A stretch of 64,000 nt of DNA from the NCBI RefSeq assembly GCF_900215155.1, contig NZ_LT907980.1, positions 620,001-684,000 of the forward strand, read 5' to 3'. The notes beneath the pieces were generated by a model. It was not told the origin of the DNA. It saw only the letters and a list, made by a program, of their open reading frames with translations, and did not search any database. Position 1 is the first letter of the stretch; every line of letters begins with the position of its first letter. Position numbers and translations under genes: made by a program. Source of the DNA: Marinobacter sp. LV10R510-11A. GTDB lineage: Bacteria > Pseudomonadota > Gammaproteobacteria > Pseudomonadales > Oleiphilaceae. Of this stretch, positions 55,199 through 64,000 are shown piece by piece.

Positions 55199-56287
55199 TC
55201 AGTTGTTAAGTGTGGAGTACACAAGCGAAGACATGTCGGTCTGATCTGAACCAGGTACTTCAATGTACTGGTCTCCGGATCCCCATAGCTTCCACCAGGG
55301 GCGCTGGTTGTAGCTCCGGGTGGCAAAGTCGACCTGCAGGCCGTTCAGGGTGGCGTTGTTTACTACCGGTACTGAGATGTTGCCGGTTTCTGTGCCCAGT
55401 ACGCCACTGTGGGTCGCGCCTTCGTTCATCAATACCGGGTAATGGTTGTAGTAAAGCCCCGCAGGGCCGTTCTGGCTGGTTACTTTGCCGCCCATGCTCA
55501 GATTGCCAGAGCAGGAGTCTATGCCTTGAGCGGAGGTGGCACCGCAGGCGGAGTGGGTGGGTACAACGCCGTCGTCCTTACCAGAGATGAATGGTTTGGT
55601 GATGCCACCGTAGGATGATCCGCCTGCCACGAACCGCAGCCGTGGAATCGAGTTGGGGCTCAGGGCCAGGTTTCTGGCGGTGTTGGTTTGCAGATCATTC
55701 ACCACACCCAATTTGCCCGGTGAAGGCTCTATGCCGGTGAATGCTTGCACCGCTGCACGAAGGCCCCAGTTGTACCAAGTTGGGTTGTACGCGAGGGACA
55801 TGGCCAAGTTTGCCAACTCGGTTCCGCCACCGGCGCCGGAGTAGTCTATAGAGGCAAGGATTTTCAGTGGTGGCAAACCCTCGTTCTGCAGCCAGCGAGC
55901 CTGGTTTTCTAGCATGTAACGTGTCACCAGATCGCCGGTTGAGTGGGAAACGACGATACAAAAGTCATTGCACAGTCCCTGTTGACTTATTTCGCGAATC
56001 TGCTCGTAGGCCCGTTGTGCAATGGTGCCTTCCACCCGGCCATCGCTTGGCCAATCAATGCGGGCTTCCGAGCGGGACAGCCAGAATGTTTGCCAGTAGT
56101 CCTCACCTGCGTCTTTGATCGCCTGAAGGTTGGCGGGTGGGGTTGAAAGGTCTTCCATTTGGAATCCGTGAACCAGTATAACGTTGTGCCCGGCAAGCTG
56201 CGCTTGGGCAGTTCCGGCCATCATACTGCTGGTGAGCGCTGCCGCCAGCGCGATTTTACAGGCATTTCGGGGCTTTTTTGTTGTCAT
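55199..56287 (-). CDS. secreted triacylglycerol lipase (alpha/beta hydrolase) with atypical SHSTG elbow
   Basis: Exported esterase/lipase of 362 residues. A signal peptide ends at TAQA-Q (about residue 29). The oxyanion segment is ILVHGFQ (about 37-43); the nucleophile is S116 in S114-H-S-T-G118, where the usual first glycine of GxSxG is a serine. The acid is D238 or D239 (SGKDDGVVP) and the histidine H293 (ATHSGVLG) or H282. Four cysteines (106, 110, 248, 259) could form disulfides, which fits export. It is the second gene of an operon behind a membrane-anchored Ig-like protein. Substrate range cannot be read from sequence. Confidence 0.85.
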   Translation of the reverse strand: MTTKKPRNACKIALAAALTSSMMAGTAQAQLAGHNVILVHGFQMEDLSTPPANLQAIKDAGEDYWQTFWLSRSEARIDWPSDGRVEGTIAQRAYEQIREISQQGLCNDFCIVVSHSTGDLVTRYMLENQARWLQNEGLPPLKILASIDYSGAGGGTELANLAMSLAYNPTWYNWGLRAAVQAFTGIEPSPGKLGVVNDLQTNTARNLALSPNSIPRLRFVAGGSSYGGITKPFISGKDDGVVPTHSACGATSAQGIDSCSGNLSMGGKVTSQNGPAGLYYNHYPVLMNEGATHSGVLGTETGNISVPVVNNATLNGLQVDFATRSYNQRPWWKLWGSGDQYIEVPGSDQTDMSSLVYSTLNN

Positions 56288-56324
56288 GATTATTCCGTCT
56301 TTGCTTGGTTATTGTTGTGGTACC

Positions 56325-57434
56325 TCAGAACTTGTCAGCCAGCTGTTTCAGCAGAGCTGCACGCTGTCCTGATTCGGGATCTACCGCCGGAGTGTCATTA
56401 AGATCATCAAGATCCGGCGGTTCAAAGTCGTACCCGTCATCTGGGCCGAAGGCATAATGGGTTTGGTCACCGGGCCGGGCAGGCAGCTGCCGTATCTGTA
56501 AGTTGCGCAACTGAAACTTTCCGTTGAACGACTTGTTGGCAAGCACCGTCCCATGGGCTTTTAGCGAGAGGGTGTCGGAGGTGCGGTCGAGGCGCTTCTC
56601 AGCCTGAAGCTGAGCCACTGGTTGCTGCCCGTTATACAGCTGGGCAGATAACGCATAGAAGCCCGAATCCTGCGGTGAGAAGCTAACAGGAATAACCAGA
56701 TTGTTGTTACTTAGATAGGTGTCTTCCAACCCTTCAAAGTCCCCGAGATAGGGTTCGATGGTAAGGCTGGAGGCGTGCCGCACAGGCTTTCCATCAACGG
56801 TTGCCTCCACGATAAGCCGATATTCCCCAGGCTCTTCGTCGGTGGTCAGGCTGCCCTGGTAGTAGCCAGTCTGGTTATCCTGCTCCAGCGTTGTGCTTCC
56901 AACGGTGTCTCTGGATTCAGGGCGCTCAAGTGTCGCCCGAAGCGAATACCCCATCACTTGAGGGCCTTGTAACGAGGCGACAACAAGGATGTCTTCACCG
57001 CGCGTAAAGCGGAACTTATCGAGGGTAACCGTAAACTGACCGCCGTTTTCCAGGGGCAGTGCCACAGGCTCGTAGCGATTGCCACGGTACCCGTCTGCCT
57101 GGGCTTGGGTTAAAGGTACTGACCAGGGCGGATAACGAACGGACTCTGCATATTGGTCTGCTACTTTGGCCAACATAAACCCAACCGGATTATTCGAGGG
57201 CGGCTTTTGCTGAAAGCCCGCAGCCGCCTGAGAAGATCCAGGTGGGAACGTCGGCAGGGTGGGTTTGTATTGGCTTCCAGCCCCCACAGCTTTTGTGTTC
57301 CAACTAAAGCCGAAGCGATTGTCTTCTGACAACAGATATCCCGTACCGACCACAATGGAGGCTGCAGCTACAATGACTACGAGCGCCTTTGGGGGCATTC
57401 GTCTGTCCTTCTTTTTTGTTGTGTTGTTCGACAA
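56325..57434 (-). CDS. membrane-anchored two-domain Ig-like protein, possible lipase partner
   Basis: I do not recognise a characterised family. The 369 residues begin with a short basic head and one membrane helix (about 16-35), giving the anchor-in, body-in-periplasm topology of the Lif lipase foldases. The Lif motif and helical repeats are absent. Instead there is a proline-rich linker, a YPPWSVPL segment (about 101), one beta-sandwich (about 132-228; VTLDKFRFTRGEDILV ... GEYRLIVEATVDGK), a second (about 240-315; SGFYALSAQLYNG) and an acidic tail. It lies 37 nt upstream of the lipase in the same direction, so a role in folding, export or surface display of the lipase is likely. Possibly related to DUF4785/choice-of-anchor X proteins; unsure. 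Confidence 0.75.
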   Translation of the reverse strand: MSNNTTKKKDRRMPPKALVVIVAAASIVVGTGYLLSEDNRFGFSWNTKAVGAGSQYKPTLPTFPPGSSQAAAGFQQKPPSNNPVGFMLAKVADQYAESVRYPPWSVPLTQAQADGYRGNRYEPVALPLENGGQFTVTLDKFRFTRGEDILVVASLQGPQVMGYSLRATLERPESRDTVGSTTLEQDNQTGYYQGSLTTDEEPGEYRLIVEATVDGKPVRHASSLTIEPYLGDFEGLEDTYLSNNNLVIPVSFSPQDSGFYALSAQLYNGQQPVAQLQAEKRLDRTSDTLSLKAHGTVLANKSFNGKFQLRNLQIRQLPARPGDQTHYAFGPDDGYDFEPPDLDDLNDTPAVDPESGQRAALLKQLADKF

Positions 57435-57523: not shown

Positions 57524-58141
57524 TCAAAACCAGCCAGAATCCTTTATCGCCTCAAAGCCAAACCTGAGAGTTACCTCATCCCCCACTAGAGCGGGATCGA
57601 GCCCGTAGGTCATACCCCAGTCACTGCGTTTGAGCGTTGCTTCAGCGCTAATGCCCAGAGTGTATTCCTCATGGCCAATAGGGTATTCGGCAGCCTTGTT
57701 CAGAGTAACATCCAGCTCAACCGGCTTTGTTTGCCCGAGTAGGTCCAAATCCCCAGTGACGACTCCAGTCGATTCCCCGGTTGTCTCAAAGCCCGTGACT
57801 GTGAACGTGATGTCTGGATATTTGCCGCTGTTGAGAAAATCTTTGCCAGTGACGTGGCTATCGCGCTTTTCATGATTGGTGAACACGCTTTTGCTTTTGA
57901 ACGCGAGCTCGCCTGATATCAACTCCTGGGTTTCATCGTCGTAAACGAATTCGCCTTCAACCTTCCGGAACATCCCCATGACCGGAGCGTAGCCAATGTG
58001 CATAATTTCGAAGACCATCGAGAAATGCTCGTCATCCACCTCGAATTTGGCGGGCTCGGCATTTGCTACGTTTGTAATAGGCGCCAGTGCTAAGCAGGCA
58101 ATAAACGCCGGTGTCAGGGAAAGCGATTTAGAGGGTTTCAT
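57524..58141 (-). CDS. YceI-family periplasmic lipid-binding protein
   Basis: Lipocalin-like periplasmic protein that binds isoprenoid or other polyprenyl/lipid chains. ATG 58141 (205 residues) has AAAGGAG 7 nt upstream and gives a clean signal peptide ending VANA (about residue 28). An ATG six codons earlier lies upstream of that ribosome site and is unlikely. The eight-strand fold is visible as FKSKSVFTNHEKRDSHVTGKDFLNSGKYPDITF and FEIMHIGYAPVMGMF in the usual YceI order. It overlaps the CDP-alcohol transferase gene by 14 nt, so the two are co-translated, hinting at a shared lipid. Confidence 0.9.
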   Translation of the reverse strand: MKPSKSLSLTPAFIACLALAPITNVANAEPAKFEVDDEHFSMVFEIMHIGYAPVMGMFRKVEGEFVYDDETQELISGELAFKSKSVFTNHEKRDSHVTGKDFLNSGKYPDITFTVTGFETTGESTGVVTGDLDLLGQTKPVELDVTLNKAAEYPIGHEEYTLGISAEATLKRSDWGMTYGLDPALVGDEVTLRFGFEAIKDSGWF

Positions 58142-58919
58142 AATGAAATCTCCTTTCATAAAGCCAATACACGTCCGTCATAAACGACCAGGCGAGTAAC
58201 AACAGGGCGGTTGCCAGCGTCAGGCTGGCGAACATGGGTGGAATGGGCGGTACAATAGCGACCATCAGCGTAACGATCTGCCATACACAGATGGTTTTGC
58301 GCCGGAAACTCTCGGGCAATGGGTGGTTTAGCCAATCCATCGCGAAAGCAGCGGCAACAAACAAGTAGCGCATAAGCCCGAGAGCGATAACCCAGGTGCC
58401 GGCTTTACCGCTCGCGGTCACGGCTACGCATAAACCCAGAATCAACAGCGCGTCCATTTCCATATCGAAACGGGCGCCGAAAGCACTGGCGGAGTGGGTT
58501 ACCCGGGCAAGCTTGCCATCGACGCCGTCGAGAATCAGTGCAATCAGAGCACCAACGGCGTAAATCCAGAGTGTGTAGGTCGATGTGGGATGCGCAGGTA
58601 TAAATGGGGCGCCAGCGACCAGGGCAACAATCAGGCTGCTCCGAAAGAGCGTAGCGCGATTTGCCCAGCCAAAATCTTTACCTCGGGGCCAGCGCGTGAG
58701 CACAGCGACACAAATGAAACCGTAAAGCAGGGCTGCTATGAGAAACATCGACCCGGATGATGAATATAATCGCGCAGCACCAACCATCCACAATGCGGTG
58801 AATACAGCGCCCCAGAGCAGGTCGACCCAGGGCGGTAATATGAAAGGTCTTGATTGCCCTCCAAAATCCATAACATTGCTCCAGCGTATAGGCTTGTGTG
58901 CATCGCCTTCAGGCGTCAA
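58128..58919 (-). CDS. CDP-alcohol phosphatidyltransferase family membrane enzyme
   Basis: Integral membrane transferase that joins a CDP-activated diacylglycerol (or similar) to an alcohol. The 263 residues contain the full catalytic motif D-G-x2-A-R-x8-G-x3-D-x3-D: DGVDGKLAR, then G and D at the right spacing in FGARFDMEMD. About six to seven hydrophobic helices surround it. It is not PgsA or PssA by length or context. It overlaps yceI and is divergent (84 nt apart) from the dehydrogenase that opens the pterin-like cluster. The alcohol acceptor is unknown. Confidence 0.88.
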   Translation of the reverse strand: MTPEGDAHKPIRWSNVMDFGGQSRPFILPPWVDLLWGAVFTALWMVGAARLYSSSGSMFLIAALLYGFICVAVLTRWPRGKDFGWANRATLFRSSLIVALVAGAPFIPAHPTSTYTLWIYAVGALIALILDGVDGKLARVTHSASAFGARFDMEMDALLILGLCVAVTASGKAGTWVIALGLMRYLFVAAAFAMDWLNHPLPESFRRKTICVWQIVTLMVAIVPPIPPMFASLTLATALLLLAWSFMTDVYWLYERRFHYETL

Positions 58920-59003
58920 TCGGTGCCGGGCATATACTAATGACTATAGTTTCCAAAGCACGTTAATGCATACCACAGTGAATTCTTTTCAGAGGAGTGC
59001 AGG

Positions 59004-60011
59004 ATGAGTTCCGGCCCAAGCTATTCATCACAACAATCCGAGTCCCGGGCCTTTTGGATAACTGGGCCCGGGGAAGGTCGTATTCTGGCAGCACCCGTAG
59101 CATCCGGCCAACCGGAGAACAACCAGCCCTGGGTGGTTGTGCAAACGCTTTGGTCTGGTGTCAGCCGGGGTACGGAATCTCTGGTATTCAACGGCCGGGT
59201 TCCGCAAAGTGAATACGATCGCATGCGGGCCCCGTTTCAGGAAGGCGCGTTTCCATGGCCGGTAAAATACGGCTATGCCAATGTTGGGCGAGTACTTGAG
59301 GGCCCGGCTGAGCTCATCGGTAAAACGGTGTTTTGTCTATTCCCCCATCAAGGGTGTTATTCCGTCCCAGCCAGCGCGGTGACACCTATCCCAGCTGGCG
59401 TTCCGCCGGAGCGGGCCATTCTTGCAGCCAATATGGAAACCGCGATCAATGGCCTTTGGGATGCCATGCCGGCCGTAGGTGATCGCATAGCCGTGGTGGG
59501 GTTGGGTGTGGTTGGCCTTCTTGTCAGTTGGCTCGCTAGCCGTATTCCGGGAACACGGGTAACGGTGATTGATACTAATCCCGCCCGTGCGTCGGTCGCA
59601 GAAGCTCTGGGGCTGACCCTTGCTTCGGGGTCTTTGGCAGATGATCACGATTTGGTTATTCACGCCAGCGGTCATGCATCTGGCCTTACAACCGCGCTGT
59701 CTCTGGCAGGTCAGGATGCAACCGTGCTGGAAATGAGTTGGTACGGCGATAGGTCTGTTTCTGTGCCACTTGGGGGCGCATTTCACTCACGCAGGCTTAC
59801 GCTACAATCCAGCCAGGTCGGCCAAATTCCGCCGGCACGCCAGCCCCGATGGACATACCGCAAACGCCTCGAGCTGGCGCTTGAGTTGCTTCAACACGAT
59901 ATTCTGGACCAACTGATTACGGGTGAGACGGCGTTTGAGCAGATGCCGGAAACCATGAGTCGGATTCTTTCGAACGGCAGTGATACGCTTTGCCACCGCA
60001 TAAAATACTAG
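59004..60011 (+). CDS. MDR-superfamily dehydrogenase lacking classical zinc ligands
   Basis: Medium-chain dehydrogenase/reductase of 335 residues. The N-terminal GroES-like part has SGVSRGTESLVFNGRVP where classical enzymes have a Cys-containing zinc site, and there is no structural zinc Cys cluster. The Rossmann part has AVVGLGVVGLLVSWLASR (about 163-180). This sub-branch resembles BchC-like dehydrogenases. AGAGGAG precedes the ATG. It opens a tight plus-strand run with the PTPS-like gene 9 nt later. Substrate unknown; oxidation or reduction of a side-chain hydroxyl is plausible. Confidence 0.85.
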   Translation: MSSGPSYSSQQSESRAFWITGPGEGRILAAPVASGQPENNQPWVVVQTLWSGVSRGTESLVFNGRVPQSEYDRMRAPFQEGAFPWPVKYGYANVGRVLEGPAELIGKTVFCLFPHQGCYSVPASAVTPIPAGVPPERAILAANMETAINGLWDAMPAVGDRIAVVGLGVVGLLVSWLASRIPGTRVTVIDTNPARASVAEALGLTLASGSLADDHDLVIHASGHASGLTTALSLAGQDATVLEMSWYGDRSVSVPLGGAFHSRRLTLQSSQVGQIPPARQPRWTYRKRLELALELLQHDILDQLITGETAFEQMPETMSRILSNGSDTLCHRIKY

Positions 60012-60020
60012 GAGCTTCTT

Positions 60021-60419
60021 ATGTTCAGCTTGACCGTCCGGGATCACATGATGATCGCGCACAGCTTTAATGGTGAGATCTTCGGCCCGGCGCAAAAGAC
60101 CCACGGTGCCACCTATGTCGTTGATATGACATTTGAGCGCCGCGAGCTTAATAGTGATGATCTGATTATTGATATTGGCTTGGCTTCAGAGGTTCTCAAG
60201 CAAGTGCTGAGCGAATTCAACATGCAGAACCTCGACGACATCGAAGACTTCCGTGGCCGCAACACCACCACCGAGTTCATGGCGAAGAAGGTGTTCGATC
60301 GCATGGCTACAGCCATCCACGAAGGGCGGTTGGGTGAGACGGCAAAAGCCGTCTGTGCGCTGAAGGTCACCTTGGCTGAGTCGCACATTGCTTGGGCCAG
60401 CTACCATGCTGGAATCTGA
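60021..60419 (+). CDS. 6-pyruvoyl-tetrahydropterin synthase/QueD-family homologue, zinc site altered
   Basis: T-fold protein of 132 residues. The family's three zinc histidines are normally one in AAH and two in HGH; here the first is in IAHSF (H14) and the pair has become THGAT (H28, then Ala30), so one ligand is missing, though H9 could substitute. QueD's catalytic Cys and the LDH motif are also not preserved, while NTTTEFMAK and LAESHIAW match the PTAEN and ET regions. A different reaction than QueD is therefore likely. It overlaps the glycosyltransferase gene by 14 nt. Confidence 0.82.
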   Translation: MFSLTVRDHMMIAHSFNGEIFGPAQKTHGATYVVDMTFERRELNSDDLIIDIGLASEVLKQVLSEFNMQNLDDIEDFRGRNTTTEFMAKKVFDRMATAIHEGRLGETAKAVCALKVTLAESHIAWASYHAGI

Positions 60420-62379
60420 CACGGCTCTGCACTTTATCGTGCCAGGCGATCCGAACCAGAACACGGGTGGTTATCGCTATGTGCGAAAACTGATCGAAGC
60501 GCTGAATCAGGCTGGCGCGACAGCGGAGGTAACGGGGCTGCCGGGTAGGTTCCCAAAGCCTGATGGCATCGCCACACACGGGATGGACAGCCTGCTCTCG
60601 CAGTTTGCTGACGGCTCCTGGGTAATTTTGGACGGGCTTGCGATGAGTGCAATGCCCAGCACCCTCGAAAAACATGCGCAGCGTTTGCGTCTTGTGGCTC
60701 TTATTCACCACCCGCTGGCAGACGAAACCGGGCTAAGCCTAAGCGAGCAGGATTGGTTTTTTGAACGCGAAGAAAAGGCATTAAGAATCGTTCGGGATGT
60801 TTTTACAACAAGCGCATTTACGGCGTCCCGACTAGCAGATTACGGCGTTGACGCCGGGCGTATTCAAACTGCCGAGCCGGGAGTGGAAAGCCCGGCTGGT
60901 AACGCGTTGGCAAGCGACACTGAGATTTTCGGCAAGAAGCATGAAGCCCAAGCGTCAAAGGCTCCGAAAATCCTCTGCGTTGCGCATCTTTCACCGCGCA
61001 AGGCGCAAGGCCATCTGGTAGACGCTCTTGCCGGCCTGAAAGGCCTGGAATGGCACTGTACCTTGGCCGGCTCCTGCGAGCGTGATCCGGTTTACGCAAA
61101 TGGCGTGCGGCAGCAGGTTCAAGAATCAGGTCTCGGCGGTCGAATTGATTTTGCAGAAGAAGTTGAAGAACAGCAGCTCGCGAGTCTCTACCGGGAAGCT
61201 GATCTGTTTGTGCTGCCGTCGTTGTATGAAGGCTACGGCATGGTGATTGATGAAGCCCTAGCGGCAAGGCTGCCCGTTATTTCATCCGATGGCGGCGCCT
61301 TGAAGCATACCGGGAACAGGCCGGGTGTCTTGTTGTACCGGGCAGGGGACACAGATGCTCTGCAAGCCAGCCTGCGAACATGGCTGGGCGACTCTGCAGC
61401 TTTGGAGCATGCCCGTGAACTTGCTGCGGCTGAATCCCGCAACATAAGAAGCTGGGCGGATACGGCAAGCCTGTTCCTGCAAGGGCTTGGCTATTTTGAC
61501 CAACGCCATCGCGCCACCTTCTTTGCAGACGAATGGCTACAGGCCCGCGAAGCCGCAGATCATTGTGCGCGTTCCGTGGAACTGACACAGCGGTTGGAAC
61601 AGTGGGCAGGGGATACCTTAAAGAGCAACCACCAAAACCCGGTCAGGATCGTTGATATAGGCACAGGTCGCGGCTCAAACGTCGCCTATCTTGCCCCTGC
61701 GTTTTCTTTGCCGCAGGAATGGCTGCTGGTTGATCAGGATAACGATTTGCTGGCTGCGGCCGCCAGAAAGGCGCACCAGCTGAATGTGTCGTTTAAGACT
61801 TTGCAGCGCCGTTTAATGCCGGAAGATTTTCAGGGATTTCTCCCCCAAGACACGTCTGTTGTAACAGCCTCGGCACTCATTGATCTGGTTTCTGAAGCTT
61901 GGCTGGCAGCGCTTGTGGCCGAGGTGATTTCAAAGCAAGCGGCTATTCTCGTTGTGCTGAGCTATACCGGCCGCTTTACGCTTTCGCCGGCCCATAAAGA
62001 CGACGCTCTGCTTCGGGAGCTGGTTAACCAGCATCAACATGGCGATAAAGGCACAGGTGCCGCGCTTGGGCCGGAAGCCGCCGCTGTGCTTGCAGACCAA
62101 CTGCGCATGAAGGGCTATGAGGTGCAGGTTGTTGAAACCCCCTGGCAGCTCGACAGCAAGGACGCCCAGCTGGCGACGATGCTCATGGCAGGCTGGGTAA
62201 CTGCAGCAAAACAACAAAGCCCGGGTGCTGAAGATGCCAGTGATCGGCTGGATGCCTGGTTTGCTGCCAGAAAGCAGCAACAGGTAGCGGGCGAGCTGGA
62301 AATCACCGTGCACCATCAGGATGTTCTTGGCCTGCCGCCTGGCTGCGCTGTCGAAAAAATACTCGAACGATCCGCATGA
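60406..62379 (+). CDS. fusion of a GT4 glycosyltransferase and a SAM methyltransferase
   Basis: A 657-residue two-domain enzyme. Residues about 1-385 are a GT-B glycosyltransferase of family 4 with LCVAHLSPRKAQGHLVDAL and the EGYGMVIDE nucleotide-sugar motif (E275-x7-E283). Residues about 400-650 are a class I methyltransferase with motif I VDIGTGRGSN (about 416). ATG 60406 is preferred; a TTG 18 nt upstream is in frame. It overlaps the PTPS-like gene by 14 nt and the next gene by 4 nt (ATGA). It would add a sugar and a methyl group to the same product. Confidence 0.85.
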   Translation: MLESDTALHFIVPGDPNQNTGGYRYVRKLIEALNQAGATAEVTGLPGRFPKPDGIATHGMDSLLSQFADGSWVILDGLAMSAMPSTLEKHAQRLRLVALIHHPLADETGLSLSEQDWFFEREEKALRIVRDVFTTSAFTASRLADYGVDAGRIQTAEPGVESPAGNALASDTEIFGKKHEAQASKAPKILCVAHLSPRKAQGHLVDALAGLKGLEWHCTLAGSCERDPVYANGVRQQVQESGLGGRIDFAEEVEEQQLASLYREADLFVLPSLYEGYGMVIDEALAARLPVISSDGGALKHTGNRPGVLLYRAGDTDALQASLRTWLGDSAALEHARELAAAESRNIRSWADTASLFLQGLGYFDQRHRATFFADEWLQAREAADHCARSVELTQRLEQWAGDTLKSNHQNPVRIVDIGTGRGSNVAYLAPAFSLPQEWLLVDQDNDLLAAAARKAHQLNVSFKTLQRRLMPEDFQGFLPQDTSVVTASALIDLVSEAWLAALVAEVISKQAAILVVLSYTGRFTLSPAHKDDALLRELVNQHQHGDKGTGAALGPEAAAVLADQLRMKGYEVQVVETPWQLDSKDAQLATMLMAGWVTAAKQQSPGAEDASDRLDAWFAARKQQQVAGELEITVHHQDVLGLPPGCAVEKILERSA

Positions 62380-63329
62380 ATTTGTTTCGCAATACAGGCA
62401 TTCGCATCGCATTGAAATGGCTGGTGACGGCTCTGATCATAGGTGCGGTATTGTTGTTCGTGGATGGCAAAACACTGATTCGCGAAGTTGCCCGCATTCC
62501 TCCATCTGCGTTGGTTTTTGGGCTTGTGTTAGGCGTTGGCCAAGTGTGTTTGTCGGCTTGGCGGTGGCGGTATACTGCCGGCCTTCTAGGCCTTCCGATA
62601 CCCTACATGCAGGCAGTGCGCGAGTATTATTTGGCAACCTTTACCAACCAGGTTTTGCCGGGCGGTGTTCTGGGTGATGTAAACCGGGCACTGCGTCATG
62701 GTGCGGATACTGACAACCGGGCGGCAGCTGCCCACGGTGTGGCTATCGAGCGTTTGTCCGGGCAAGTAGTGCTGGCGGCTGTGGTTGTAACTGGCCTCGC
62801 GTGGTTGTTTATCACAGGCAGAATTATCGGTAATGACGCCACCGGCTCAGGCTCTCTGGGCCATCTTTACTCGCTGCTTGCAGCCGTGGCCACTGTGGTT
62901 TTACTGGCGTGGTTTTTTGCCCGGAGGAGCGAGCGGGTATCCGTATATTTTGACACGCTGCGCGAAGATCTCACTCTGGCTTTGTTGTCATGGCCAGCCT
63001 TCCCGTTGCAGGTGCTAACCTCTCTGCTAGTCGTGGCAAGTTATCTGGCGGTGTTCCTTGTACTTGCAAACGGCGCGGGTTATTTGGCTGGCCTGCCTTC
63101 GGCGGTTGTAGTCGCGGCGCTGTGCAGTCTTCTTTTGCTCAGCATGGTGATACCGGTTACTGTTTCTGGCTGGGGCGTCCGCGAAGGCGCAGCGGTTATC
63201 TTGTGGCCCATGGTGGGCTTGCCCGCGGAGCAGGGCGTGGCTCTGAGTGTGGCATATGGCGTTTTAATATTTGTTTCCAGCTTGCCGGGCGCCTTGTTTG
63301 TGTTCAGTTCGCCGGCAAAGAAATGCTGA
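62376..63329 (+). CDS. flippase-like membrane protein (lysylphosphatidylglycerol synthase TM/UPF0104 family)
   Basis: Polytopic membrane protein of 317 residues with about eight helices and no soluble catalytic domain. Features of the family are the GQVCLSAWRWRY segment (about 49-60), YLATFTNQVLPGGVLGDVNRALRH (about 86-109) and SGWGVREGAAV (about 265). Relatives move lipid-linked molecules across the membrane, as in the MprF flippase half. ATG overlaps the upstream stop (ATGA), so it is translationally coupled to the glycosyltransferase-methyltransferase. Its 3' end overlaps the convergent reductase gene by 26 bp. Confidence 0.85.
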   Translation: MNLFRNTGIRIALKWLVTALIIGAVLLFVDGKTLIREVARIPPSALVFGLVLGVGQVCLSAWRWRYTAGLLGLPIPYMQAVREYYLATFTNQVLPGGVLGDVNRALRHGADTDNRAAAAHGVAIERLSGQVVLAAVVVTGLAWLFITGRIIGNDATGSGSLGHLYSLLAAVATVVLLAWFFARRSERVSVYFDTLREDLTLALLSWPAFPLQVLTSLLVVASYLAVFLVLANGAGYLAGLPSAVVVAALCSLLLLSMVIPVTVSGWGVREGAAVILWPMVGLPAEQGVALSVAYGVLIFVSSLPGALFVFSSPAKKC

Positions 63330-64000
63330 AATCCAGATCAAACAACATGTCAGTGCCCAGATTCACAAATCGAGACGCGGGCCGGAGCGCGTCATCCAAG
63401 AAGTCAATTTCTGGCAGGGAAAAAGCAGGCCTACCGCTGCCGATAATCATCGGTGCGACCATCACATGAAGGCGATTGAGCAAGCCAACTTCGAGGAAAG
63501 ATGAGATCGTCATGCCGCCGCCCTCTACGAAGATCTTTTTCAAACCAAGATCCGCAAGAACCTCAAGAATGAGTTTGGGGCTCACAGGCTCTATTCCATT
63601 GCCCAAACAGGGGATCTCTATTACGGCGCGCTCCCCATAGCCCTCAGCCATTCCAGGGGTATAGTCGCCGGCCACCAGTCGCAGTGTGGGTGCTGCTCCG
63701 TCCGTAAACAGGTGGTGGCTTTCCGGCACTCTGCGATTGCGATCAACAACCACTCTTACAGGATTTTCACCGCTGGTACAGCGCACGGTCAGCTGGGGGT
63801 TATCCGTTGCCGCCGTACCAGCGCCAACAACCACGGCATCCGAAAGCGCCCTTATGCGGTGCAGATGAACAATCCCATCGTTACCATTAATAAACCTGGA
63901 ATGCCCGGTAACCGTTGCGATACGGCCATCTAGGCTTTGCCCGAGCTGGCCGATAACGTGCAAGGGGGCGCCCGCAGCAAGTGGTGGGCATAAAGGTAGG
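63304..64000 (-). CDS. RibD C-terminal-type pyrimidine reductase, 5' end beyond the right edge
   Basis: Member of the RibD/dihydrofolate-reductase fold, which reduces ribosylaminopyrimidines or related compounds with NADPH. Motifs are HVIGQLGQSLDGRIAT, VVVGAGTAATDNPQLTVR, FVEGGGMTISSFLEVG and APMIIGSGRPAF. The frame stays open to position 64000, so the true start lies outside; the TTG at 63963 is not the start. No deaminase domain is visible in what remains. It converges on the flippase-like gene (26 bp overlap). Its substrate may be a pterin or pyrimidine made from GTP, consistent with the PTPS-like neighbour. Confidence 0.85.
   Translation of the reverse strand, partial: LPLCPPLAAGAPLHVIGQLGQSLDGRIATVTGHSRFINGNDGIVHLHRIRALSDAVVVGAGTAATDNPQLTVRCTSGENPVRVVVDRNRRVPESHHLFTDGAAPTLRLVAGDYTPGMAEGYGERAVIEIPCLGNGIEPVSPKLILEVLADLGLKKIFVEGGGMTISSFLEVGLLNRLHVMVAPMIIGSGRPAFSLPEIDFLDDALRPASRFVNLGTDMLFDLDFSISLPAN

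Follow-up and report, generated by a model that had tools for sequence, protein, structure and literature searches.

A recurrent gene cluster of Pseudomonadota and Actinomycetota appears to make a glycosylated, methylated and often membrane-anchored molecule from a GTP breakdown product

Results

The genes encoding an MDR-superfamily dehydrogenase, a PTPS-like T-fold protein, a GT4 glycosyltransferase, a methyltransferase, a flippase-like protein, a CDP-alcohol transferase and a stand-alone RibD reductase, located at the right end of the analysed stretch of Marinobacter sp. LV10R510-11A DNA (64,000 nucleotides, the window), form one block. The cluster appears to make a sugar-decorated, methylated, often membrane-anchored molecule from a breakdown product of GTP.

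Organization of the cluster in Marinobacter

Searches with Pfam and NCBIfam profiles located all the genes named in the original prediction, which had been read from the sequence of the window, in the predicted region (Table 1). The described 4-nt overlap between genes was present, as was the 14-nt overlap if the GT4–methyltransferase gene begins at the ATG at position 60406, which is probably its start. The RibD gene, read in the host contig, encodes 292 aa and extends to a position equivalent to 64182 of the window. Beyond the right edge lie genes for a nucleotidyltransferase (galU by eye) and an ShlB-type outer-membrane protein, and opgG/opgH. A GTP cyclohydrolase gene, expected just past this edge, was looked for in the host contig and was absent, and the profile search of the host genome found none next to the cluster. 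The two GTP_cyclohydro2 genes of this genome, one encoding a RibA and the other a fusion with DHBP synthase (RibBA), are located far from the cluster. Rfam models at gathering cut-offs detected only three tRNAs in seven loci (135,668 bases, with L003 representing the host genome and part of the window), and control by a riboswitch or other RNA was therefore dropped.

Table 1. Positions, strands and profile matches of the cluster genes in the window
Feature	Position	Strand	Profile evidence and remarks
YceI family, periplasmic lipid-binding-type	57524..58159	-	Pfam YceI 133.5 bits; mostly outside the originally predicted start of the cluster
CDP-alcohol phosphatidyltransferase	58128..58919	-	Pfam PF01066 55.7 bits
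MDR-superfamily dehydrogenase	59004..60011	+	ADH_zinc_N 20 bits, below cut-off 31.8
PTPS-like T-fold protein, SCO6650 type	60021..60419	+	Pfam PTPS (PF01242) 79.2 bits, cut-off 22.4
GT4 fused to class I SAM methyltransferase	60388 or 60406..62379	+	Glycos_transf_1 84.9 bits, Methyltransf_25 27.5 bits
Flippase-like LPG_synthase_TM membrane protein	62376..63329	+	Pfam PF03706 117.1 bits; sole domain found
Stand-alone RibD C-terminal reductase	63304..64000 (gene cut by window edge)	-	Pfam RibD_C 129.9 bits

Conservation and co-inheritance of the cluster

The PTPS-like gene was detected in 81 of the 151 genomes of the host family. It was accompanied by the CDP-alcohol transferase in 78, the flippase-like gene in 76 and stand-alone RibD in 77 of these 81 genomes, and each of the three genes was found in 0 of the 70 genomes lacking the PTPS-like gene. 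The same neighbours recurred across 127 loci of Pseudomonadota and Actinomycetota, examined in three groups (76, 27 and 24 loci, the last being actinobacterial). The gain and loss of the block in the 151 genomes and its recurrence across phyla put the grouping of these genes far beyond chance. The original prediction had called for such a survey and had named neighbourhoods not conserving the genes together as the outcome that would speak against it; the genes turned out to be conserved together as a recurrent, co-inherited unit in the two phyla, and this objection fell away. The neighbours also occur on plasmids: of 23 matching plasmid records 11 were examined, and 9 of these carried them; a plasmid of Rhizobium sp. 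SL42 carries the flippase, CDP-alcohol transferase, RibA, MDR, PTPS, GT4, methyltransferase and RibD genes in a single run.

The core common to nearly all loci consisted of the MDR, PTPS, GT4 and methyltransferase genes with either RibD or cyclohydrolase II. The fusion of GT4 with the methyltransferase, as described in the original prediction, is present in the window, but most loci outside Marinobacter carry two separate, mostly adjacent genes. The YceI gene is likewise present in the window, but as a neighbour of the cluster it was seen in 58 of 76 and 6 of 27 loci of the two proteobacterial groups and in 0 of 24 actinobacterial loci; since only some of the proteobacterial loci have it, it is a peripheral partner. 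Cytochrome b561 was noticed as a possible membrane partner in some lineages.

Both lipid genes, encoding the CDP-alcohol transferase and the flippase, were missing from 19 of the 80 loci outside Marinobacter, some of these 19 stretches ending at contig ends. OpgH was present in their stead in 9 of the 19, and in 7 it took the slot beside MDR. A run on a Rhodobacteraceae SC52 plasmid comprised PfkB kinase, MDR, PTPS, methyltransferase and RibD genes; the gene table, which declares itself incomplete, lists neither a GT4 nor a lipid gene up to 8 kb away. Together with the composition of the core, these loci favour a soluble secondary metabolite or cofactor for which, as in toxoflavin-type pathways, the cyclohydrolase II product would be the starting material; it would carry sugar and methyl groups but no lipid, and the CDP-alcohol transferase, flippase, OpgH and YceI would be envelope-related neighbours serving its export or housing. 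Such a product is possible but rather doubtful, since in the host family the CDP-alcohol transferase and flippase genes come and go together with the block and each of them was found in 23 of the 24 actinobacterial loci, which makes it hard to see them as mere neighbours.

The PTPS-like protein

The T-fold protein had been described as PTPS/QueD-like and bears the database name 6-carboxytetrahydropterin synthase. The PTPS domain is present, yet the protein is not a QueD/PTPS enzyme, as the catalytic Cys and one zinc ligand are lost. The catalytic-Cys position is occupied by Ala24 in the window and by Ala in all 106 family rows, whereas Cys was found in 16 of 18 HGH-type rows. The third zinc-His position is Ala30 in the window protein, with H14 and H28 retained; the 105 Ala residues at this position are partly so by construction, because the 106-row group was defined by the absence of His there, the 18 others being weak, QueD-level matches. 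Residues H14, H28, D51, D72, E85 and E120 are invariant. With QueD and PTPS-I, PTPS-II and PTPS-III (COG0720) the protein shares the T-fold domain, Glu120 and two of the three zinc-binding His residues, and it differs from them in the two Ala substitutions. The PTPS-III pattern (Glu for Cys with an intact HxH) does not occur in the window protein and was observed among 124 rows only in two outlying fusion-type loci (L104/L149 and L107/L150). The NCBIfam QueD equivalog model gave 40.0 bits with a cut-off of 89.25. An ordinary queuosine, biopterin or folate PTPS situated beside unrelated envelope genes, as the Pfam domain and the public annotation would have it, is highly improbable and was rejected on the grounds of the residue table, the model scores and the co-inheritance with the other cluster genes. 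Queuosine and folate genes were absent among the recurrent neighbour groups that were annotated, which form a subset of all groups.

The PDB entry 3d7j (SCO6650) matched residues 1–130 with 165 bits (E 6e-48), its HGA motif being aligned, and judged by sequence the window protein is a clear orthologue of SCO6650 of Streptomyces coelicolor over 130 residues. Sixteen sequences of the family, drawn from two phyla, share 44 invariant positions. The clustered sequences that match it at E 1e-15 or better number at least 8000, and members occurred in 37 of the 246 actinomycete genomes sampled and in 19 of the 299 sampled from the host phylum. Annotation as the queuosine enzyme (6-carboxytetrahydropterin synthase) is frequent and was seen in 14 of the 20 listed plasmid records.

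GTP cyclohydrolase II and creatininase-family partners

The GTP cyclohydrolase missing beside the Marinobacter cluster was encountered in its relatives, cyclohydrolase II being encoded in 54 of the 127 loci. A creatininase-family protein was encoded in 44 of the 127 loci, and fusions of cyclohydrolase II with RibD were identified in two lineages, with the MDR and PTPS genes following them directly in two loci. These three features are new findings of the present analysis.

The catalytic Tyr of cyclohydrolase II, Tyr105 of E. coli RibA in the RAY motif, was not present in all of these enzymes; for instance, the position is M in L179 and Y in L149, L134, L137 and L145. Loss of Tyr105 in RibA halts the reaction at the formamide. 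A cyclohydrolase is encoded in 21 of the actinobacterial loci, and in these a creatininase gene accompanied all 16 Tyr-less enzymes and none of the five Tyr-bearing ones, and the association between Tyr loss and creatininase was significant (Fisher p 5e-5). The simple rule that creatininase occurs only with a Tyr-less cyclohydrolase holds in actinobacterial loci, fails in proteobacterial ones and was not retained. A creatininase-family protein of Sinorhizobium is a formamidase acting on exactly the cyclohydrolase II formamide (PMC9478397). The creatininase partner has its family name in common with the BrbF formamidase (SMc02977), and one partner protein, from Salinicola, scored 19.4 bits with the ArfB equivalog (cut-off 180). 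The occurrence of cyclohydrolase II in the loci, its RibD fusions and the Tyr–creatininase pattern make the product of cyclohydrolase II the probable starting point of the pathway.

RibD, MDR and CDP-alcohol transferase

The only Pfam match of the full 292-aa RibD protein was RibD_C (residues 75–260, 128.5 bits), with no N-terminal deaminase domain. Residues S83, D85, G86, T123, D127, P129, E220, G221 and G222 were conserved in at least 95% of 100 rows, and the reductase motifs were kept in comparison with 6p8c and 2azn. Some actinobacterial loci were without RibD, which weakens a universal role for this enzyme. The best NCBIfam match of the MDR protein was BchC, with 50.4 bits, far below the cut-off of 291.25; this bacteriochlorophyllide dehydrogenase, the closest named MDR subfamily, converts a secondary alcohol to a ketone. 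A sequence search of the PDB with the MDR protein gave no match at E 1e-6, and among structural matches of its predicted fold polyol dehydrogenases seemed, tentatively, to lie nearest. The CDP-alcohol transferase possesses a complete motif (D131xxD134G135xxA138R139x8G148xxxD152xxxD156), the family motif being DxxDGxxARx8GxxxDxxxD, with the residues present in at least 95% of 108 rows. It scored 30.9 bits with the PgsA equivalog, under the cut-off of 109.1, and its PDB matches were limited to three weak ones with choline or ethanolamine phosphotransferases.

The RibD reductase motifs are those of riboflavin synthesis, and the cyclohydrolase II–RibD fusions point to a ribityl intermediate. Both would suit a branch of riboflavin synthesis ending in a ribityl-pyrimidine, lumazine or flavin-like product and not a pterin, with the T-fold protein as a binding or condensing protein. 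This is unlikely, however: the annotated subset of recurrent neighbour groups contained neither a deaminase nor a lumazine or riboflavin synthase, T-fold proteins of the PTPS-type family bind pterin-like rings, and we know of no role of MDR enzymes in flavin synthesis.

Proposed pathway

The reading preferred here is a dedicated, uncharacterised pathway leading from the cyclohydrolase II product through a pterin to a glycosylated, methylated, mostly lipid-anchored molecule; for all six steps together, we give it an even chance. The precursor is most probably 2,5-diamino-6-(5-phosphoribosylamino)pyrimidin-4(3H)-one, for which many relatives would rely on a cyclohydrolase II encoded in the cluster and Marinobacter on its housekeeping RibA (step 1). 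Where the cyclohydrolase is Tyr-less, the reaction should stop at the formamide, on which the creatininase-family protein would then act as formamidase. The stand-alone RibD reductase, where present, likely turns the ribosyl into a ribityl group (step 2); since it is devoid of the deaminase domain, it can leave the pterin 2-amino group in place. The MDR dehydrogenase may oxidise the 2'-hydroxyl to a ketone (step 3), giving the very 1-deoxy-ribulosyl intermediate which GTP cyclohydrolase I obtains via the Amadori rearrangement, and the PTPS-like protein may close the ring to a dihydroneopterin-3'-phosphate-like pterin (step 4). Decoration by the GT4 and the methyltransferase would follow (step 5). 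In most, not all, lineages a phosphatidyl group would be attached by the CDP-alcohol transferase to the side chain, which resembles glycerol phosphate, and the flippase-like protein would shift the lipid-linked product to the outer leaflet (step 6), with YceI or cytochrome b561 as a putative periplasmic or membrane partner in some of them.

A more far-reaching version, tentative and rather improbable, combines a second bacterial pterin route, independent of GTP cyclohydrolase I, with a glycosylated, methylated phospholipid that has a pterin phosphate as its head group and is flipped to the outer face of the membrane, perhaps a redox lipid acting with YceI or cytochrome b561. Such a route would employ cyclohydrolase II (or the formamide-stopping variant with the creatininase-family formamidase), RibD, a polyol-type MDR and a T-fold cyclase lacking the QueD active site, which together would restore the intermediate formed by cyclohydrolase I on its own.

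Discussion

One of the closest known systems is that of SCO6650 in S. coelicolor. The gene order of the actinobacterial locus L168 (MDR, PTPS, GT4, methyltransferase, flippase, creatininase and cyclohydrolase II) presumably fits the SCO6650–SCO6655 numbering, SCO6655 being taken as the cyclohydrolase II. Compared with such loci, the Marinobacter cluster is without cyclohydrolase and creatininase and contains RibD and YceI. Single S. coelicolor proteins have reportedly been studied, namely the structure of SCO6650 and the cyclohydrolase II paralogues (the latter by Spoonamore in 2006, a study cited in PMC3509567); to our knowledge, no pathway or product has been assigned to the SCO6650–SCO6655 proteins.

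The start of riboflavin synthesis (RibA, RibD and the archaeal ArfB or bacterial BrbF formamidase) draws on the enzyme families found here and agrees with the pathway in its predicted first two or three steps, whereas the cluster RibD is without the deaminase domain and the MDR, T-fold, GT4, methyltransferase and lipid genes are added. Toxoflavin-type pathways are secondary pathways begun by cyclohydrolase II and a RibD homologue and containing methyltransferases, and their start resembles that of the cluster; we know of no T-fold protein, GT4, CDP-alcohol transferase or flippase in them. In the searched literature of freely available journal papers, no description of this gene combination, of a pterin-lipid product or of SCO6650 was found.

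Of the original interpretation, the co-inherited unit and, in relatives, the link to a GTP cyclohydrolase were retained, while the adjoining cyclohydrolase in this genome, the QueD identity and the core role of YceI had to be given up. Under the preferred reading, four enzymes would lead from the product of cyclohydrolase II to a pterin, a concrete and testable route. The conservation of the cluster from marine Marinobacter to soil actinobacteria, with an apparently GTP-derived product, points to a widespread natural product of which the searched literature gave no description. If the preferred reading holds, an undescribed glycosylated compound that derives from GTP and is often lipid-anchored would be made by a large group of bacteria, the orphan SCO6650 protein would gain a pathway, and a mistaken queuosine-enzyme annotation could be corrected in many genomes.

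Organization and co-inheritance of the cluster

All genes named in the original prediction were found by gene calls and Pfam/model matches, in the order and orientation proposed there. The YceI and CDP-alcohol phosphatidyltransferase genes were located on the left side, divergently to the run of the MDR dehydrogenase, PTPS-domain, GT4-methyltransferase fusion and flippase-like genes (spacings of 9, -14 and -4 nt), and the gene for a RibD C-terminal domain protein converged on the flippase-like gene. The RibD gene crossed the edge of the window (bases 620001-684000 of the 4.44 Mb single-contig genome), and its full protein had 292 aa with RibD_C as the sole Pfam domain. The GTP cyclohydrolase gene expected just past the right edge was absent, and a nucleotidyltransferase gene (galU by eye), a gene for a ShlB-type protein and opgG/opgH were found there instead, the last pair a few kb away beyond the galU-like gene. 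The genome encoded RibA (Tyr kept) and RibBA, each away from the cluster and the latter beside a riboflavin-type RibD reductase domain, and the genome search revealed no creatininase-family gene.

Locations of PTPS-domain genes and of an adjoining gene pair without Pfam matches
Feature	Location	Strand	Remarks
PTPS-like gene of the cluster	window 60021..60419	+	
Two adjoining proteins, 362 and 369 aa	window 55199-57434	-	no Pfam match at E 0.001; lipase-like HSTG motif in the first (by eye)
Second PTPS-domain gene of the window's genome	G000:C1 near 464197 (locus L002, 850-1704)	-	284 aa; PTPS domain matched in part (total 47 bits)

The PTPS-like, CDP-alcohol transferase, flippase and RibD genes were each searched for in one constant panel of 151 genomes from the window's family. 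The PTPS-like gene was present in 81 genomes, accompanied by the CDP-alcohol transferase in 78, flippase in 76 and RibD in 77, and none of these three partners was detected in the 70 PTPS-less genomes at the cut-offs used. For the CDP-alcohol transferase, the co-occurrence with the PTPS-like gene gave a Fisher p of 5e-40, kinship being ignored. The cluster genes form one unit. Three genomes (G359, G379 and G401; loci L161, L162 and L163) kept an open PTPS-like frame with no usual partners within the surrounding 18.5 kb, and the CDP-alcohol transferase, flippase and RibD were found nowhere in them. The contig of G396 (L024) stopped shortly past the PTPS-like gene, and in genome G296 RibD was located about 2 kb downstream of it and the flippase was absent.

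Distribution and recurrent neighbours

Relatives of the PTPS-like protein were encoded in 323 stretches, the best 80 of which were retained. Strong matches (E below 1e-25) occurred in 12 of 274 genomes sampled from the class, and matches were also detected in 19 of 299 genomes sampled from the phylum (E 1e-12) and 37 of 246 from the actinomycete class. The 127 loci laid out comprised 76 proteobacterial contigs among the best 80 of 323 stretches, 27 proteobacterial regions (every strong class or phylum match except same-genus ones, and two weak ones picked for their neighbours) and 24 actinobacterial loci (four among the best 80 of 323 stretches and 20 of the 36 others from the actinomycete-class search). 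Neighbours were counted by a profile search, cut-short contigs being scored as misses.

Neighbour families of the PTPS-like gene in 127 loci
Family	Proteobacterial contigs	Proteobacterial regions	Actinobacterial loci
MDR	75/76	26/27	24/24
GT4	72/76	26/27	24/24
Methyltransferase	71/76	23/27	20/24
RibD	69/76	22/27	8/24
CDP-alcohol transferase	72/76	12/27	23/24
Flippase	64/76	10/27	23/24
YceI	58/76	6/27	0/24
Cyclohydrolase II	22/76	11/27	21/24
Creatininase	24/76	4/27	16/24
OpgH	33/76	7/27	0/24

GT4 and methyltransferase were fused in almost every Marinobacter locus and in a small number of others, and in the remaining loci they were separate neighbouring genes; such a natural fusion argues for a shared pathway.

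Among 23 plasmid records matching the PTPS-like protein, 11 were opened, and in nine of these MDR and PTPS stood in a row, joined by other cluster genes (Rhizobium sp. SL42, Methylosinus trichosporium OB3b, Microbacterium, Streptomyces fungicidicus, Thiodictyon, Rhodobacteraceae SC52, Agrobacterium, Neorhizobium and Palleronia). The 59-kb Microbacterium plasmid was mobilizable, with seven cluster genes. In the other two, both from Streptomyces (L188 and L193), the PTPS-like gene stood alone in unrelated surroundings, close to cupin, metallo-hydrolase, sigma-factor and BTAD-regulator genes, which represents a second, different context. The small clusters of two Rhodobacterales plasmids (L195 and L198) contained PfkB-type sugar kinases and, in L198, also an inositol monophosphatase near MDR, PTPS, methyltransferase and RibD. 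These genes hint that phosphate on the sugar chain is processed.

Active site of the PTPS-like protein

At E 0.001, the sole PDB relative by sequence was SCO6650 of Streptomyces coelicolor (3d7j). The 124 aligned PTPS rows were sorted by whether they had the third zinc-binding His: 106 lacked it (105 Ala, 1 Thr) and 18 had it. All 106 rows without the third His had Ala at the catalytic Cys position, with H14, H28, D51, D72, E85 and E120 invariant. The 18 His-bearing rows were weak, QueD-level matches from the class search, with Cys (16) or Glu (2) at the Cys position. The window protein failed the QueD model (40 bits vs the cut-off of 89) and, together with the Ala found throughout the family, this speaks against the PTPS chemistry assumed originally. 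SCO6650 itself reportedly lacks zinc and PTPS activity and retains a pterin-type pocket. Because 44 of 132 positions never varied among 16 sequences drawn from the two phyla, the protein is judged to be under strong constraint and is probably an enzyme, predicted to catalyse another reaction. Public records often name its members 6-carboxytetrahydropterin synthase (14 of the 20 plasmid records listed), with the term queuosine biosynthetic process, despite the loss of the active-site residues of QueD.

GTP cyclohydrolase II and creatininase as additional partners

De novo neighbour grouping and Pfam revealed two additional recurrent families, GTP cyclohydrolase II and creatininase. In two outlying loci the cyclohydrolase was fused to RibD_C and directly followed by genes for MDR, for PTPS and for GT4 or methyltransferase; the PTPS proteins of these loci had another type of active site, with Glu present and HxH intact. 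Of the 21 actinobacterial cyclohydrolase loci, 16 had Met, His or Leu at the catalytic Tyr position and every one of them contained creatininase (16/16), whereas the five with Tyr had none (0/5; Fisher p 5e-5). The L179 cyclohydrolase had Met at this position. Considering all 54 cyclohydrolase loci, creatininase was found alongside 19 of 19 non-Tyr and 21 of 35 Tyr enzymes. The pattern tracked clades in the tree and hence reflects few events; the Ile-type Halomonas cyclohydrolases and the Met/His/Leu-type actinobacterial ones, however, fell in separate clades. A formamidase of Sinorhizobium is described as acting on exactly the formamide to be expected from such cyclohydrolases (PMC9478397), and it shares the creatininase family with the cluster proteins. 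The one cluster creatininase tested failed the ArfB model. The cyclohydrolase II and creatininase neighbours, the RibD fusions, the Tyr-creatininase pattern and the Sinorhizobium formamidase are taken as good evidence that the pathway is entered from the cyclohydrolase II product and not through cyclohydrolase I and dihydroneopterin triphosphate.

Variation in RibD and the lipid genes

RibD was absent from 16 of the 24 actinobacterial loci, and searches of 14 of these genomes revealed distant homologues only (best 62 bits). Both lipid genes, for the CDP-alcohol transferase and the flippase, were absent in 19 of the 80 loci outside Marinobacter, some on short contigs. Nine of these 19 loci contained OpgH, in seven directly beside MDR, the usual slot of the CDP-alcohol transferase, and among the 80 loci OpgH and the lipid genes occurred together in L076 only. 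This exclusion is partly a matter of lineage because the 24 actinobacterial loci had no OpgH. In Marinobacter both were present, with OpgH some kb off. This leaves two readings, an optional lipid step or OpgH as a substitute partner at the envelope. An OpgH/MdoH glucosyltransferase gene was seen beside MDR in L134, L136, L137, L138, L139, L142 and L145 and in plasmids L190 and L197. A cytochrome b561-type gene adjoined or was near RibD in L134, L136, L137, L138, L142 and L145, and a cytochrome b gene was present in plasmid clusters L189, L194 and L196; Marinobacter-type loci have YceI instead.

Searches of an open-access library gave no description of the cluster as a pathway. The original prediction, in which these genes make, glycosylate, methylate and move a pterin- or pyrimidine-containing lipid-linked molecule, is right in outline, wrong on the chemistry of the PTPS-like protein and on the window's right edge, and a candidate reading in its lipid part. 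The cluster is real and widespread, and its predicted product may be lipid-linked.
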